DNA from: Defluviitaleaceae bacterium
Lineage (GTDB): Bacteria; Bacillota; Clostridia; Lachnospirales; UBA5962
Length of the DNA: 45,149 bases
Direction: 5' to 3'
NCBI GenBank assembly: GCA_009778165.1
Contig: WRKF01000186.1
Coordinates: forward strand, 1 to 45,149
The position numbers and the translations under genes are program-made. Positions 1,246-8,933 of this stretch are shown piece after piece. The notes beneath the pieces were generated by a model, which saw nothing but the letters and a program-made list of their open reading frames with translations, was not told the origin of the DNA and did no database searches. Position 1 is the stretch's first letter. Each line of letters begins with the position of its first letter.

Positions 1246-1869
1246 CTACAAAGCCCCTACCACAACAGAGCCGTCCACGTAACCATAGTGCGAGGAAATA
1301 ACGTATTTAACCCCGGCTATTTCAGATAATTTTCTGATGTCTTCTTTTTGCATATCGTCGTTTTTATTAAAAAAGGAGTTAAACAAATATGCTTGCCCGT
1401 CTTTTAGGCTCAAGGCATCACCTGCAAACAGAATTTCGTTGTTTACTAGATATGACACGTGGTTATCTGCGTGACCCGGCGTGTGTATACATTTCACGCT
1501 TAGCCCATGTATATCCAGCACATCACCATCTGCCACTTTTGTGTATGCGGCTGCGGATAGCTCGTCGCTGTCTGTTTCATATGCGTATATATCTGCATCG
1601 AACAGAGCCAACGAAGCTGTGTGGTCGCCATGTGTATGCGTCAGCAACACAGCACATATATCTGCCGGATCTATATTTAGATTTTTCAGTTGGCTAATTG
1701 TCGTTTCGTTATTTGCACCAAAATCTATCGCTACAAATTTGCCGGCTTCGGGTAATTTAATCAGAAAAAAGTTTACAAACTCATTGTTTATCGCAAAAAC
1801 ATTGGGACAAATTTCGCCGGTTGGCAGTGGGTTCATTTTTTTAATTTCTTGTGCTACTTGATCAGACAT
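1246..1869 (-). CDS. Metallo-beta-lactamase-fold hydrolase (glyoxalase II-like)
   Basis: This 207-residue protein carries the family metal-binding motif HTHGDH near residue 79, followed by a later His in the HTPGHADNH segment, an Asp in FAGDAL and a C-terminal SSHYGYVDG. These are the expected dinuclear metal ligands of the metallo-beta-lactamase superfamily. The length fits small glyoxalase II-like or generic MBL hydrolases. It has no signal peptide, so it is probably cytoplasmic. The start has a clear ribosome binding site (AAAGGAG, 7 bases upstream). It lies 30 bases upstream of the surface protein gene on the same strand and could be cotranscribed with it. The substrate cannot be read from the sequence. 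Confidence 0.88.
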   Translation of the reverse strand: MSDQVAQEIKKMNPLPTGEICPNVFAINNEFVNFFLIKLPEAGKFVAIDFGANNETTISQLKNLNIDPADICAVLLTHTHGDHTASLALFDADIYAYETDSDELSAAAYTKVADGDVLDIHGLSVKCIHTPGHADNHVSYLVNNEILFAGDALSLKDGQAYLFNSFFNKNDDMQKEDIRKLSEIAGVKYVISSHYGYVDGSVVVGAL

Positions 1870-2030
1870 TTTCGTTCTCCTTTTTATAGTTTTTATGGTT
1901 TTGACATTTTTGACATTATATTGTATTATTTCAATTATTATATCACATTAGTACAATTATGACAATTCGGGAGTTAAAGTTAAAATAATGTTACAAGTAG
2001 GTTACAAATTTTCGGGAATCTTACCACTGC

Positions 2031-2059
2031 TTGACACTGTGTGCAATAATGTTTATAAT
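2031..2059 (+). promoter_or_regulatory. Consensus sigma-A promoter for the MotA/FliG-like gene
   Basis: TTGACA at 2031-2036, a 17-base spacer and TATAAT at 2054-2059 match the consensus fully. The expected start is near 2066, giving a leader of about 105 bases before the ATG at 2171. The rest of the 1870-2170 gap shows no gene. Confidence 0.85.
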
Positions 2060-2170
2060 TATTATATGATTAACTGTGTTTTACAACAAACAGACAAACA
2101 TTGAAGTAGAAGTAGAATTAAAGTGAATTTCTGTATACGGATTTAGTTTAAGAGCGGAGGCTACATAAAT

Positions 2171-2899
2171 ATGCAAACTTTCATACAAAACCTAAATGCA
2201 CGCTTTACTGCCGAAGAAAAACAAAACTGCCTTCCCACCGCTCACCGAATAATTGATTTATACTTATTTTCAAAAGTGAACGGAATTATCGCTTTAGAAG
2301 ATGAGGTCGCAAAAGACCACGGTTTTCTTAAAATGGGGATAGGCCTACTACTAAGTGATTCGGACGAAACCATTATGGAGAGTGTGTTTTGTAATTCAAT
2401 TTTGGCGGATGGGTTTACCGGCGAAGATTTGTTAAACAGATTGCTCATATCTAAAGGGGTTATAGCCTTACGGAAAGGTTATAATATATTTGCTACTACT
2501 TACACTGTTGGTTCTCTCCTCGGCGAAAAATACGTAGAAAAACTTATTTTGGAGATTAAGGACAAAGTCAATTCAAATCTATTTATGTATGAATACCTTT
2601 TTGATCTTTCGGAAAGTGAAAGTTTTCAAGGGATTTTGTTAAACTTAACTCAAGAGGAGCTTTATCACCTTTTACCATATACGGATACTAAGATTCTTGC
2701 AGAAGCCTTTAGAGGGTGCAACACACCTTTTGTTCAACAAATGAGTGATAGTCTTCCTGTAGTTACTTTTATTGAAATCTGTAGGGAGTTAGCCGGTTCG
2801 AGGCTTGATTTTAATAAGGAGGCAATTTTAAATTGTCAAAGCAAAGTTTTAGATAATTTGAGGCATTTAAGAGAACTAGGTCTAATCGCTAAAGAATAA
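2171..2899 (+). CDS. MotA-cytoplasmic-like / FliG C-terminal-like chimeric protein
   Basis: This is a 242-residue soluble protein with no signal peptide or membrane segment. Residues about 25-120 read like the cytoplasmic and dimer part of MotA: a helix with NGIIALEDEVAKDHGFLK, then GIGLLLSDSDETI and a long helical stretch (MotA has GLLALED, DPFLKKG and a DGTDP segment at the same spacing). Residues about 150-240 read like the FliG C-terminal domain: LTQEELYHLLPYTDTKILAEAF, an amphipathic middle, and an end with LDNLRHLRELGLIAKE (FliG ends with a helix leading to RRLEEAGEI). No MotA transmembrane helices and no FliG N-terminal or middle domain are present. The chemoreceptor 101 bases downstream and on the same strand suggests a link to motility. 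The assignment rests on motif reading only; a generic helical-repeat protein is the alternative. Confidence 0.6.
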   Translation: MQTFIQNLNARFTAEEKQNCLPTAHRIIDLYLFSKVNGIIALEDEVAKDHGFLKMGIGLLLSDSDETIMESVFCNSILADGFTGEDLLNRLLISKGVIALRKGYNIFATTYTVGSLLGEKYVEKLILEIKDKVNSNLFMYEYLFDLSESESFQGILLNLTQEELYHLLPYTDTKILAEAFRGCNTPFVQQMSDSLPVVTFIEICRELAGSRLDFNKEAILNCQSKVLDNLRHLRELGLIAKE

Positions 2900-3000
2900 A
2901 GAGATTTAATTCGAGAATATTTGGACAAGATTTTATATTTTACACTATACCTACTATACCCTGTTATTTGGTATAAACCATGAAAGGAACGGTTATAACT

Positions 3001-5271
3001 ATGAAATTACTCAACAGACTAACATTCGCAAAAAAACTTGTACTATCTTACACCCTAATAATATTAATGTTTGGGGGTTCTTTGTTGTTTTCGTACATAT
3101 CTTTCAGAAACAACGACGAAGCGTATGACCATTTGTTCGACTTTGTAACAATGCGGGCTATACTTATTTTAGAATACCAGCAGCAATTTACAGAAATGCG
3201 TAGATATTTGCGTGCTACCTTTATGGACAACGAATGGCGGGATACGGCAACCCAGGGTGAAATACAAGAAAGTCATGAGTATATACTATACATATACAGC
3301 TACTTACAAGTCCTTCACGCAGGATATGCCGCATCCATTCGGGATGATCCCTACTTGACTGCCGAGGAAAGGACGCTTCGCTCGAACAATATAGATACAA
3401 TAATGACAAGTGCAAGCTCACTTATCGACATATTTTCGCGCAACTTTTTCCCGGGGGGCAATAACAGCCTTGAGCTTGAAAACGCTATTGAACTTACCGA
3501 AATAGTGGACGACCTTGTGGAGCAATCTCGTATTTTATCTACCGAGCTTACTACACAATTGCGTGCTTCACTAGGTGTAGCGTCTAACCAAGTTCAAATC
3601 GTGTTGATAGTTGTGGCTGTTGTTATTGTAACGTTTGCGGTCGTTGTTGCACTTGTTATGATAAGAGGGTTCAAGCGAAAAATAAACAAATTGTTGGCTT
3701 CAGCCAAACATGTACAGGTCGGCAATTTTGACATAGTTTTGCGTACCAACGACACAGACGAGATGGGTACATTATCAAACGCAACTGCCGATATGGTAGA
3801 TACAGTTAAGCTACTTGTAACCCAAATAGACAATATGACAAACGAGCTAGAGCTTGGTGATATAGATGCTCGTATAAATGAAACGGTTTTTGAAGGGAGT
3901 TATCGCACCACCGCCACTGCTATCAATACAGCAATATCTAGCGTTATAAAGGATACGCTCGATGTTTTGGCAATCAATAAATCCTATGCCGAAGGTGATT
4001 TTAAAGTAACATTCCCACAACTGCCCGGCAAAAAAGCTATTGCAACAGAAACATTAAAGCTAATACAATCTAACTTGCAAAATGTCCAAAAAGATATAGA
4101 AGGGCTTGCTAACTCTGCATCGCAAGGGGATCTCACCCAACGAATAAGCCTGGATGGGTACTCCGGCAACTGGCAAGACACAATGAAATCATTAAACAAT
4201 TTTGTAATGAACGTTGCAGAACCTATCAACGAATCTGTTGATGTGCTTAAAAAACTGTCTACAGGCAGTCTAACCGCAACTGTTAACGGCAACTATCAAG
4301 GTAGCTTTTTGGAGATAAAACAAGCGCTTAACGGCACAACCGCCGCCGTTTCTGATTACATACAAGAAATAAGCGATGTGCTTGCCGAAATGTCCCAAAG
4401 AAACTTGGATGTAGCAATAGAAAGAGATTTCCGTGGAGATTTTAACGCAATCAAAGTTTCAATTAACAATATTATAGACGTTTTTAACACAATAATGGAT
4501 GAAATACGTGTTTCTACCGTGCGTATGGCAGACGGTGCAGATTCTATCTCCCAGTCTAGCCAGATGCTGTCCCAAGGGGCAACACGGCAAGCCGAAGCAA
4601 TGCGGGAGATACAAGAAAGTGTTAACAAAATGAGAGAGCAGATTCAATCCAATGCCGAAAAGGCAGACGCAACAAACGAGGTAGCAGAAAAAGCCAAAGA
4701 AAGTGCAAACAAAGGCAATGATAACATGCAAGAAATGCTACGCTCTATGGATGAGATAGGTCAAGCATCTCAAGATATATCAAAAGTTATAAACACAATC
4801 GACGACATTGCTTTCCAAACTAATTTGCTTTCTCTAAACGCATCGGTAGAGGCAGCAAGGGCAGGAGAACACGGCAAGGGTTTTGGTGTTGTAGCAGAAG
4901 AAGTGCGCACACTTGCCCAACACAGCAAAAACGCCGCATCAGAAACAGGCACACTAATAACATCCTCTGCCGCTAAGGTAAAAGAAGGTATCAGCATTGC
5001 AGACAAAACAGCAGAAACATTGCGTGCGATAATAGGGCAGGTAGATGAGATAAGCGGGCTTATTAAAACCGTAGCAGAAGCATCCGACAAACAGACAATG
5101 GTTGTTAAAAATGTAAACGAAGGTATCAGCGAAATATCAAGCGTGACCCAAATAGCAGCATCCACATCCGAAGAAGCTGCCGCAACAAGCCAAGAGTTGT
5201 CCAGCCAATCCGAAGTGTTTAAAGAAATGGTAAGTGGGTTTAAACTTAGACATACAAGCACGTACAAATAA
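3001..5271 (+). CDS. Methyl-accepting chemotaxis protein with 4-helix-bundle-like sensor and HAMP array
   Basis: This is a membrane chemoreceptor of 756 residues. The sequence shows a first transmembrane helix at about 8-30, an extracytoplasmic helical domain at about 31-195 (four-helix-bundle type), a second transmembrane helix at about 196-220, a HAMP domain, then several HAMP-like repeats with GDF/GDL motifs (about 270-500). The signalling domain has the conserved hairpin [20 protein letters not shown] and [18 protein letters not shown] at about 600-650, which contacts CheA and CheW. There is no C-terminal pentapeptide for CheR. The ATG at 3001 is preferred over the one at 2980 because AAAGGA lies about 10 bases upstream of it. 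The ligand is unknown. Confidence 0.95.
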
Positions 5272-5279
5272 GGTTTTTT

Positions 5280-6377
5280 ATGAGAAACATACAGTTAAAC
5301 GAGGAGCTGTTTAGGCAGCTAGTAAGCCAATCGCCGCCACTCAGCCCTGCGGAAATAGATCACGAGCGGGGCGAGTTGTCCCTGATGAACGACCGAGTAT
5401 TTGCGGCGACTTTCGGCGATAACAAGCACAACGAAATAATCACAGGCACAGTAAACGCCGCACGAAAGATTCACGCTGTGCCGCCGATTCCGCCGATTGA
5501 ACACACACAAGTGCAGGACATTGACCTTTTCGACGTTTTCATGCGCGGCATGATTGGCGATCTGACAGGCACAGGCGACTCCGTAAGCATAGCCGTCGAG
5601 TTGCAGAACCAAAAACAGGACGGTTACGCCGTTCGGGGCATTATCACGACCGGAAACGCAATGCGCCGAGATTTCAAAAAGGGTAGCGATTACACGCAAG
5701 CTCCGGACGTGATAACTCTGCACTTTCTGAACTTTAAGTTGCCCGAGTTGGCGGAGCGAAAGATGTTCTGCTCGCGGATAATAAACGCCGAATTTGAAAG
5801 CGGCACACCGTTTTTAGCGGACAAATATTCCACCTATTTTATCGAACTGCCCAAAATGGTAGACTTCAAAAAGGCGGATTTACCGCAGGAATATCACGAT
5901 TTGTGGGATTTGTGCTGTATGTTTAGAAGCCGAGTGAAGAAATTTGAGGAGGAGATAAAAGTGCAAGAGATAACCAACCCAACTGCCCTGGAACTAGCGA
6001 ATGCAGTCCAACAAGCCGTGGCTCCAAGCACCTTTGTCGACGAGGAAGCAAGGTATCGGCGAGCATTTGAGAAATTTCAAGATTATATGGATGAAAAAGA
6101 ACGCCGCAGGGACGAAAAAGAACGCCGAATGATTGAGAAGTTTCAGGATCATATAGAAGAAAAAGAACGCCGCAGAGCCGAAAAAGAACGGCAGATGATT
6201 GAGGAGTTTCAGGAAAGTGAACGCCGCAGAGCCGAAAAAGAACGGCAAAAGAATGAAGAAATACTGACAATTGCCCTAAAAAACAACGCCCCGCAATCGT
6301 TAATTAAAGCAATGTGCGAAATGACAGGAATAACCGAATCTCGCCTTGCTGAGTTGAAACAACTGGCACAAACTTAG
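5280..6377 (+). CDS. Rpn-family PD-(D/E)XK nuclease / putative transposase with coiled-coil tail
   Basis: This 365-residue protein matches the Rpn/PDDEXK_2 family (recombination-promoting nuclease, annotated as putative transposase). Features seen are RVFAATFGDNKH near the N-terminus, DLTG then VELQNQ (the E-x-Q of the nuclease core) near residues 95-112, a PDVITLHFLNF strand, and the family segment DKYSTYFIELPKM. Residues about 260-335 are a highly charged coiled coil of repeated ERRR.EKER units, followed by a short C-terminal helical domain. The gene is clearly richer in G and C than its neighbours, which suggests recent acquisition. It starts 8 bases after the chemoreceptor stop with only a weak TAAGG site. 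Nuclease core looks intact. Confidence 0.88.
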   Translation: MRNIQLNEELFRQLVSQSPPLSPAEIDHERGELSLMNDRVFAATFGDNKHNEIITGTVNAARKIHAVPPIPPIEHTQVQDIDLFDVFMRGMIGDLTGTGDSVSIAVELQNQKQDGYAVRGIITTGNAMRRDFKKGSDYTQAPDVITLHFLNFKLPELAERKMFCSRIINAEFESGTPFLADKYSTYFIELPKMVDFKKADLPQEYHDLWDLCCMFRSRVKKFEEEIKVQEITNPTALELANAVQQAVAPSTFVDEEARYRRAFEKFQDYMDEKERRRDEKERRMIEKFQDHIEEKERRRAEKERQMIEEFQESERRRAEKERQKNEEILTIALKNNAPQSLIKAMCEMTGITESRLAELKQLAQT

Positions 6378-6533: not shown

Positions 6534-6713
6534 TTATTTTGGTGGCATCACAAACGCCATCACAACATACACAACGGCACTTGTACCAAAAGAAACAAAC
6601 AGAGATGCAATCCAAAGCAACCTAATAACTGTTGGATCGATGTTTAAATATTCCGCAATGCCACCGCATACGCCCAAAAGTTTTGCGTCGTCGGAACGAT
6701 AAAGTTTTTTCAT
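6534..6713 (-). CDS. PspC-domain mini-protein (59 aa)
   Basis: This short gene encodes a complete PspC domain: MKKLYRSDDAKLLGVCGGIA, then EYLNIDPTVIRLLWI and a hydrophobic helix of about 20 residues ending in MPPK. PspC-domain proteins are small inner-membrane proteins tied to envelope stress. The N-terminal GVCGGIAEYL and DPTVIRLLW motifs are the family hallmark. A ribosome binding site (AGAGGAA) lies 7 bases before the ATG at 6713. The gene has its own promoter at 6776-6804, so it is probably monocistronic. It converges on the Rpn gene across the palindrome. Confidence 0.9.
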   Translation of the reverse strand: MKKLYRSDDAKLLGVCGGIAEYLNIDPTVIRLLWIASLFVSFGTSAVVYVVMAFVMPPK

Positions 6714-6743
6714 GGTTATATTCCTCTCTTGGAAAGCTATAGT

Positions 6744-6769
6744 CTACATTACTACATTAATCTACATTA
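6744..6769 (-). repeat. Three direct TAATGTAG repeats in the pspC leader
   Basis: On the minus strand TAATGTAG occurs three times (plus-strand CTACATTA at 6744-6751, 6752-6759 and 6762-6769). The block begins at the expected transcription start of the pspC-like gene. It could be a regulator site or an RNA element; no function is shown. Confidence 0.6.
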
Positions 6770-6775
6770 GGGATA

Positions 6776-6804
6776 ATTATAGCACAAACCAATAGCATTT
6801 TCAA
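6776..6804 (-). promoter_or_regulatory. Promoter of the pspC-like gene
   Basis: On the minus strand TTGAAA (6799-6804), a 17-base spacer and TATAAT (6776-6781) form a strong sigma-A promoter. The start would be near 6769, about 55 bases before the ATG. Confidence 0.8.
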
Positions 6805-6921
6805 GTGGTTTATTTTTTCGGGGTTCTGGTATGAAGTCGTTATCTTGCAGTACTGAATCTATCCACCGAATGAAAAACTATGGAAATCCGTATATTTGTA
6901 CCCCAATGGAGGTGATCGACG

Positions 6922-7110
6922 ATGAAAGCTGATTTTGAAAATCAACTTGATGTTATTCGTGTTAATCTGAATGAGCTTACAAAAGGAATGCCAAATAGCG
7001 AAGCTGTTAGATTTACAAACGAGAATGCACGAAAGATTGCAGACCAGTATGGTATCAAGCTCACGAAAAGCACAGTAACATATACCGACGAAAGACTAAT
7101 ACCACAGTAG
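6922..7110 (+). CDS. Small hypothetical protein (62 aa)
   Basis: The product is not recognised. An excellent ribosome binding site (GGAGGTGATC) lies 6 bases before the ATG, and a strong terminator follows, so it is very likely a real single gene. The protein is soluble and polar, with no Cys. The first half is predicted helical (residues 5-45, FENQLDVIRVNLNELTKG), the end is beta-like (LTKSTVTYTDERL). It sits between the pspC-like gene and the exporter of the radical SAM locus, but faces the other way from both. Confidence 0.65.
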   Translation: MKADFENQLDVIRVNLNELTKGMPNSEAVRFTNENARKIADQYGIKLTKSTVTYTDERLIPQ

Positions 7111-7205
7111 TGTAAACGAAAGGCTATATATCAATATCTGAAAACCTATAACTCGGTTAATTAGTGAACAGCTATAATAACCTTCCGTTTTTTCATACCC
7201 ACATA

Positions 7206-7236
7206 ACAATAGCCGCCAACCACCGGCGGCTATTGT
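7206..7236 (+). terminator. Strong hairpin terminator after the 62-aa gene
   Basis: A perfect 12-bp stem (ACAATAGCCGCC / GGCGGCTATTGT) with a 7-base loop is followed on the plus strand by CGTTT and further T-rich sequence. It probably ends the 62-aa gene transcript and may also limit read-through from the exporter gene on the other strand. Confidence 0.75.
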
Positions 7237-7328: not shown

Positions 7329-8933
7329 CTACCGAACACTCCCACCAACCAAATTACCGTTTTCGATTTTGTAAACGTGTGTGCAGTATTTCATATTATC
7401 AGAGCTGTGGCTAATTAAGAAGAAAATTTTATCCTTGCAACCCTCAAAAATTTCGGCTAGGATTTCATTTTCAGCATCTTCATCCAACGAGCTTGTGGGC
7501 TCGTCCAAAATTACCACTTGTGCCTCTTCGGTAAATATACGTGCAAGGGCAATCCGCTGCCTTTCCCCCGCAGAGAGATTCGCCCCGTTTTCCAGTATAT
7601 TATCGTCCAAGTTCTTGAACCTTTTTAAAAAGCTCAAATTTTGGTACACACTTTTTTCGATAGGATCTCTCCCAAAATTTAGGTTGTTATAAATGGTGTC
7701 AGTAATAATTGGCGTGCTTTGTGAGTAATAACTCATCAGTTTTAGGTAACTGTCGTTTGTTATTTTTGATATGGGAACTCCGTTTACAGATATTTCATCT
7801 GTTGAGCGGAATTTAATTAGCAACTTGGCTAATGTACTTTTCCCGGAGCCGCTCTCGCCCATTATCCCAACTATGTCGCCTTGAGAAAATTGCAGTTTAA
7901 CATTGCTCAAAATGACGTTATCTTTCATTTCGATTTTATCAATATTAAAATCTATTTTTTCGACTTTGCTTATTGGCACATCGCCGTCGTGTTCAGCATT
8001 TTTAACAAGGTTGTCAATAAAGTCATTTGCGGCTCTGATTGCTGCAACAGATAGGTTCGTGCCAACTATTTGGCCCAGTGCCATAAAAAAGTATGGGAAA
8101 ACCAAAAACACATAAACAACACTACCAAGCAAAGCAGGGTCATTTAACGCCAACATAGAAAGATACACTATTATTACAGCCTGGAGAACCTGCAAAGCAC
8201 CTGCAAGCAGGCCGGATACCCCGTTAGCCACAGAGTTAACTCTTTTCCTAACCCCCATCAATTTGCTTGTGTGTGCGGCAATCATTGGCAGCAGATGGGC
8301 ATTGCCCGGGTTTTGCTTGATAAAGTCAACTTGCGTGGTAATTGCGTTTATATCCCGCAACACAACAGAGTTTGTATCTCGCAGTTTAATCGACATTTTC
8401 GCTAAAACTTTGTTTAACAAAGCAAAGCCGAAAATATTAACTAAAATTATCGTAATCATTACGACAGCAACGATAGGGCTTACAAAAAAGGCAATTACCG
8501 ATGTTGCAATAATCAGCATAACATTTACAACAAAACTGGGCAGTTTAAACAAATAAAACTGACAATATGCTTCTATTGCGTCGTAAGCCAAATCTCGAAC
8601 GGCGGTGGGGCCAATCTCCAAATACTTATCATACCCCAATTTAAAAACATTTCTGAACAATACTTGGCTTGTGCGTTCATAATATTTTTGCATCAATGCA
8701 TTTGAAATAAGAACGTTCAAAAACTGTAGTGTATAGCCTACCAATAGCAATGAAATTACCAATAAAATATCAGCAAAGGTGATTTCCATTGTATCTTGAA
8801 TAATTGCATTTAAAGCAACAGGTGCTAAAATAAAAAAAGCTGCCGCCACGGCCGCTATAAAAAGTAACACAACAAAGGCTCTACGCTTTAGGGGTTTTAG
8901 CATTTCTTTTCTTACGGTTTCCGAAGTTGTCAT
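7329..8933 (-). CDS. ABC exporter with fused membrane and ATPase domains (peptide/RiPP-type)
   Basis: This 534-residue half-transporter has an N-terminal type-1 membrane domain of about six helices (residues 20-300) and a C-terminal ATPase domain. Visible motifs are Walker A GESGSGKST (about 358-366), Q-loop SYYSQ, signature LSAGE, Walker B VVILDEP and H-loop LISH. There is no N-terminal C39 peptidase, so it would not cleave a double-glycine leader itself. Its start overlaps the stop of the radical SAM gene by 4 bases (8930-8933), so the two are translationally coupled. By context it probably exports the peptide modified by that enzyme; this is inference. Confidence 0.93.
   Translation of the reverse strand: MTTSETVRKEMLKPLKRRAFVVLLFIAAVAAAFFILAPVALNAIIQDTMEITFADILLVISLLLVGYTLQFLNVLISNALMQKYYERTSQVLFRNVFKLGYDKYLEIGPTAVRDLAYDAIEAYCQFYLFKLPSFVVNVMLIIATSVIAFFVSPIVAVVMITIILVNIFGFALLNKVLAKMSIKLRDTNSVVLRDINAITTQVDFIKQNPGNAHLLPMIAAHTSKLMGVRKRVNSVANGVSGLLAGALQVLQAVIIVYLSMLALNDPALLGSVVYVFLVFPYFFMALGQIVGTNLSVAAIRAANDFIDNLVKNAEHDGDVPISKVEKIDFNIDKIEMKDNVILSNVKLQFSQGDIVGIMGESGSGKSTLAKLLIKFRSTDEISVNGVPISKITNDSYLKLMSYYSQSTPIITDTIYNNLNFGRDPIEKSVYQNLSFLKRFKNLDDNILENGANLSAGERQRIALARIFTEEAQVVILDEPTSSLDEDAENEILAEIFEGCKDKIFFLISHSSDNMKYCTHVYKIENGNLVGGSVR

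Follow-up and report, generated by a model that had tools for sequence, protein, structure and literature searches.

A soluble fusion of the MotA cytoplasmic domain and the FliG C-terminal domain in a Defluviitaleaceae bacterium

Gene P0001 (positions 2171..2899, + strand) encodes a soluble protein of 242 residues in which the cytoplasmic domain of the flagellar stator protein MotA, without its transmembrane helices, is fused to the C-terminal domain of the rotor protein FliG. This composition is confirmed by family profiles and structural models, and homologues align over most of the length of the protein. The window is the whole 45,149-nucleotide stretch of DNA that was analysed, from a Defluviitaleaceae bacterium (contig WRKF01000186.1), and positions refer to it unless another locus is named. 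The contact between MotA and FliG is the site of flagellar torque and is normally reached only via the membrane-bound stator. In P0001, soluble versions of both sides of this contact occur in one chain, made by nature, in flagellate bacteria.

Domain composition of P0001

The MotA cytoplasmic domain spans residues 19-128 (2225..2554, + strand) and is recognised in the model, the alignment and the family profile. In the model, these residues superpose on MotA (PDB 8ucs, chain C) with a Z of 14.4 and 2.3 Å over 110 residues. In the alignment to the MotA of the same genome, for which we joined the two MotA pieces beforehand, the N-terminal half of P0001 consists of the cytoplasmic hairpin followed directly by the tail (EILVEGMLSIQAGENP...). 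The C-terminal tail is recognised in the pairing of LLISKGVIALRKG... with EILVEGMLSIQAG... in this alignment. Transmembrane helices 1 and 2, which precede the hairpin, and helices 3 and 4, which lie between hairpin and tail, are absent. The structure match repeats this gap, residues 76-259 of the MotA chain being covered by the 110 residues of P0001. The original prediction had assigned only the MotA hairpin to this segment. The hairpin is present, but the restriction to it does not hold, as the C-terminal tail is also there and is directly joined to it.

The four transmembrane helices that form the ion channel with MotB are missing from P0001, and no other transmembrane segment is found. The maximum hydropathy over 19 residues is 0.99, compared with 2.27 in the genome's own MotA, which bears out the claim that the protein has no membrane part.

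The FliG C-terminal domain spans residues 151-242 (2621..2896, + strand). In the model, these residues superpose on FliG (PDB 4fhr, chain B, residues 237-326) with a Z of 10.3 and 2.7 Å over 88 residues. Together with the family profile, this places the segment in the FliG C-terminal domain family (PF01706). The N and M domains of FliG, which bind FliF and FliM, are absent, their position being taken by the MotA domain.

Single-sequence searches with P0001 return faint matches only, to the solved PomA (E=1, residues 12-73), to NCBIfam MotA (0.079) and to Pfam FliG_C (E=0.083, residues 156-239). These are settled by the paralogs and about 20 relatives, which give strong profiles. A family profile built from 21 members, containing neither MotA nor FliG, matches the solved FliG at 1.8e-24 (profile positions 136-245) and the solved MotA at 1.1e-18, the latter in two stretches. 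The Pfam FliG_C cut-off is not passed by P0001 alone but is passed by P0003, P0004 and P0006. The most divergent paralog, P0004, aligns to P0001 over residues 10-234 and matches both NCBIfam MotA (4e-14) and Pfam FliG_C (1.4e-10, above the cut-off).

The AlphaFold2 model of P0001 was built from a four-row alignment and has a pLDDT of 73.8. How the two domains are placed relative to each other is not interpreted, since the models rest on four-row alignments with pLDDT of about 73. A relative modelled in the same way (L070) gives Z of 16.8 and 15.4 in the two-domain comparison. Foldseek with the whole P0001 model yields weak E-values, the best being 0.02, to FliG, whereas the domain-by-domain aligner gives the Z values above. 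The best fold outside MotA and FliG is ExbB (Z 5.4), itself a distant relative of MotA. A chance resemblance or an unrelated helical repeat was rejected, since unrelated folds reach a Z of at most 5.4 compared with 14.4 and 10.3. The profile search and the check for a FliG-C fold that had been proposed with the original prediction both uphold it: MotA and FliG are returned with no unrelated helical repeat family, and the model carries the FliG-C fold, so the C-terminal domain is FliG-C as predicted.

The charged residues of the two faces are conserved to different degrees. MotA Arg90 and Glu98 interact with FliG Asp289 and Arg281, according to PMC7564593. In the alignment to the genome's own MotA, K35 (2273..2275, + strand) is the equivalent of R90, a conservative replacement, and E43 (2297..2299, + strand) is the retained equivalent of E98. 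Most family members have R/E at these two positions and P0001 has K/E, whereas P0002, P0003 and P0007 have lost the pair. On the FliG side, residues K264, R281, D288, D289 and R297 correspond to R, V, R, E and N in P0001, so that a base is kept only at 264 and an acid only at 289, and most charges of the torque helix are lost. They are mostly lost also in the closest relatives of P0001 (P0002, P0003, P0005 and P0007). Six other members (L055, L057, L059, L060, L061 and L063) keep R281 and the acidic pair at 288-289. P0002, P0003 and P0007 may no longer bind the motor because both the FliG-side and the MotA-side charges are gone, and P0001 and P0005 may no longer do so because most of the FliG torque-helix charges are gone. 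Within P0001, the pattern of retained residues suggests that the MotA half, with K35 and E43, is likelier than the FliG half to be the active face.

Gene context, family and distribution

P0001 has a putative sigma-70/sigma-A type promoter (TTGACA-17-TATAAT, 2031..2059, + strand), identified by its consensus match only, which agrees with the consensus at 12 of 12 positions; shuffled upstream controls reach 10 or fewer. A ribosome-binding site, GGAGG, is read in the sequence 10 nt 5' of the ATG (2156..2160, + strand). The gene for a methyl-accepting chemoreceptor with HAMP and MCP signalling domains (2980-5271, + strand; MCPsignal 5.2e-45) starts 80 nt 3' of P0001 on the same strand. Both the perfect consensus promoter and the adjoining chemoreceptor gene had been predicted and are found here. 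No terminator-like site is seen between the two genes (positions 1800-3100 searched). Among the neighbourhoods listed for relatives, no chemoreceptor gene lies beside the chimera gene, and a conserved chemoreceptor operon was rejected on this ground. Directly 3' of the chemoreceptor gene is a gene for a PD-(D/E)XK transposase-family protein (5280-6377, + strand; PF12784, 9.7e-10), whose C-terminal stretch is repetitive and charged.

The chimera genes are dispersed singletons with unrelated neighbours, outside flagellar operons. No sigma-D-type site upstream of them exceeds the shuffled background, and flagellar sigma-D control was rejected for that reason. In two genomes, a small protein with a signal-peptide-like N-terminus is encoded directly 5' of the chimera (L002:867-1247 and L008:1046-1471).

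The genome of the window contains three paralogs of P0001, two at 47-48% identity (6e-63 and 2.8e-62) and one, P0004, at 28% (2e-17). Profile A1 was run against 392 genomes of the same order and finds the family in 17, as the FliG_C fusion in 16 and as a receiver fusion in one (G063). Most genomes of the order, many flagellate ones among them, do not contain the chimera. The larger profiles, run on 398 genomes sampled across the phylum, find the family in the window's own genome and list only ordinary FliG and MotA elsewhere. P0001 as a lone query has no match among the genome contigs. Alignment A3 matches three named contigs (WRKK, WRKG and WRKH) of MAGs labelled Th196, a sample code that is also used in a paper on MAGs from the higher-termite gut (PMC7024585). 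At least these three carriers are therefore probably termite-gut bacteria. In a further chimera (L129; G100:C31, about 26.6-27.3 kb), FliG-C is preceded not by the MotA tail but by a long, charged stretch of coiled-coil-like sequence.

A full-length ordinary FliG is present in all 17 carriers of the order sample. In the genome of the window, the ordinary MotA and FliG genes both lie on G000:C185, near 29.3 kb and 38.5 kb respectively. In family f5, the one sampled best (38 genomes), all 14 carriers have FliG. FliG is absent from seven of the 38, none of which has the chimera (hypergeometric 0.027, with kinship not corrected); one of the FliG-less genomes, G252, has MotA and a completeness of only 70%. 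The dN/dS is about 0.23 for the paralogs P0002 and P0003 and 0.12 for L054 and L056. The family is conserved under purifying selection. A pseudogene or spurious open reading frame was rejected for P0001, which has homologues in other genomes and belongs to a family with dN/dS below 1 in the pairs compared.

The soluble MotA domain also occurs in other settings. It is found alone in L067, L054 (641-1018) and L056 (7743-8105), and in the latter two genomes it lies directly before a MotA-FliG_C chimera (L054:641-1823 and L056:7743-8926), an arrangement that reads as a tandem pair of stator-like domains. In genome G063, it is fused to a CheY-type receiver (L066:6744-7880, - strand; Response_reg 3.9e-27), the only receiver fusion found. 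The Treponema saccharophilum plasmid pTS2 (NZ_AP025290.1, L123) encodes three soluble MotA-domain proteins (5720-6265, 6694-7230 and 7689-8546). Near the C-terminus, these contain the FliM-like motifs ISADEVDEFL, ISADEIDELL or ISQDEIDALLGG, with tails of the EIDALLGG type. These motifs, ISQDEIDALLGG among them, resemble the N-terminus of the FliM of the window's genome, LSQEEIDALLNA. A neighbouring pTS2 gene (995-1804) also encodes LSQDEIDQLLS, and the N-terminal stretch of the 285-residue pTS2 protein resembles the DNA polymerase beta clamp (dnaN 8e-4). At the level of sequence, the soluble MotA domain is shown to be repeatedly paired with predicted rotor or switch modules, namely FliG-C, a CheY-type receiver and a FliM-like CheY-binding peptide. 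In the domain tree, a branch (89/97) separates true MotA from the soluble forms. One origin of the soluble forms is not told apart from several, because the tree is unrooted.

A candidate role at the stator-rotor interface

We favour, with moderate confidence, the reading that the chimera is a motor-directed regulator at the MotA-FliG interface, acting as a clutch, brake or occupancy tuner. The original prediction had proposed a decoy, brake or assembly regulator. Such a role is plausible and preferred because other proteins combine the soluble MotA domain with a CheY-type receiver or a FliM-like peptide and because all carriers are flagellate. The profiles and models also show each half to be a homologue of one side of a known interface between two partners. 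In an engineered Clostridium sporogenes MotA-FliG_C fusion (PDB 8ucs), FliG_C is docked between two MotA domains, according to a preprint (PMC11302681), from which it follows that MotA and FliG_C can bind when tethered. By analogy with this structure, the chimera could work at the stator-rotor contact in one of three ways. Its MotA half would dock on the rotor FliG-C, or its FliG-C half would fit into the cleft formed by adjacent MotA subunits in the stator, or the chimera would self-associate. The contact sites would thus be occupied by a protein that neither passes ions nor makes torque, and the expression level of the chimera would set its effect as clutch, brake or tuner.

Several points argue against this role, beginning with the charge losses in P0001 and its closest relatives described above. 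FliG_C in the engineered complex requires two MotA domains, and such pairing may be beyond a soluble MotA domain that has no membrane part. The genes lie outside flagellar operons, with no sigma-D-type promoter standing out. The family is also missing from the majority of the order's genomes, among them many that are flagellate.

The chimera could instead be a structural accessory: an added component of the rotor or stator ring, or an assembly factor that, for example, holds stators near the C-ring or templates contacts between FliG-C and MotA, and not an inhibitor. The homology and the flagellate distribution fit this equally, a protein with two heads could link one motor part to another, and there are several paralogs per genome. 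It is nevertheless unlikely, given that the FliG N and M domains, which fix FliG in the ring, are absent, and that the genes, unlike those of core parts, are dispersed and confined to a minority of the order's genomes. Another reading is a domesticated protein, in which the motor domains are reused as a self-associating or scaffold pair and for which isolated genes in unrelated surroundings would be expected. Such a protein would have lost its original partners, and the charge loss in the P0001 branch would have that cause. The loss of charges at both faces in P0002, P0003 and P0007 is consistent with domestication. The same holds for the complementary charge pairs between the MotA half and the FliG half of one chain (26 of 44, compared with 22.5 in shuffled halves, p 0.002), although the relatedness of the rows makes this hint weak, and shared ancestry can cause such an excess. 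However, all carriers are flagellate, the fusion partners are rotor or switch modules, and the torque charges are kept in most members outside the P0001 branch, and we consider domestication quite unlikely.

The least probable of the readings weighed here is that of an adaptor for switching or chemotaxis, in which the soluble MotA domain brings a payload (FliG-C, a CheY-type receiver or a FliM-like peptide) to the rotor and changes the switching bias, not the speed. The MotA-receiver fusion, the FliM-like tails in Treponema and the chemoreceptor gene 3' of P0001 would all be in line with it. The receiver fusion is found only once, however, the chemoreceptor neighbour is not kept among the listed neighbourhoods of relatives, and FliG-C itself is not known to bind CheY.

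The favoured role as a regulator at the MotA-FliG interface can be extended, tentatively and with less than even confidence, to a modular family of soluble "stator mimics". In these, a MotA face freed from the membrane would be combined with FliG-C, CheY-type or FliM-N modules, plug into the stator-rotor contact, and control from within the cytoplasm how the motor runs or switches. The variants with a receiver or a FliM-like motif point to a broader toolkit that reaches into spirochaetes. If true, the motor would have a layer of regulation assembled from its own interface domains, for which no known brake or clutch offers a parallel. If the chimeras bind, they would represent motor control built from motor parts and not from second-messenger receptors. 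They would also serve as ready-made probes of how FliG-C is gripped by the MotA face; in structural work, these two had to be tethered artificially.

Comparison with known systems

By profile matching, the nearest named family to P0001 is NCBIfam NF047717 (LIC10244, Leptospira). The match is colinear, with residues 13-197 of P0001 on positions 13-208 of 252 (1.9e-6), and at 27.4 bits it lies far below the family cut-off of 475. NF047717 may be a spirochaete member of the same architecture. LIC10244 is listed as a hypothetical protein without a description of function or domains (PMC8638967). The family is named for an up-regulation linked to PerRA/PerRB. Literature searches that also covered soluble MotA and FliG-like or MotA-like proteins, largely without subscription papers, give no description of a natural MotA-FliG chimera. 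As far as that literature extends, the MotA-FliG_C architecture itself is new.

YcgR, MotI and EpsE are PilZ or glycosyltransferase-like proteins. As small soluble brakes and clutches that act at MotA and/or FliG (PMC10140304, PMC3000366), they resemble the chimera in the proposed way of working only. They have no homology to it, and none of them is built from motor domains.

The cytoplasmic domain of MotA/PomA (PDB 8ucs, 6ysf and 8brd) shares with the chimera the hairpin, the tail, the fold and, in most members, the R90/E98 pair. Unlike MotA/PomA, the chimera has no transmembrane helices, and hence no ion channel, MotB partner or membrane-set pentamer, and it adds FliG-C. With the FliG C-terminal domain (PDB 4fhr and 1lkv) it shares the fold and the sequence family, several members exceeding the Pfam cut-off. 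In contrast to FliG, it lacks the N and M domains, by which FliG is anchored in the C-ring, and in P0001 the torque charges are mostly lost. The engineered 8ucs fusion has the same order of parts as the chimera, with FliG_C placed behind the MotA tail via a linker. That fusion is a laboratory construct that retains the complete membrane MotA and was designed to trap the complex, whereas the natural chimera is soluble.
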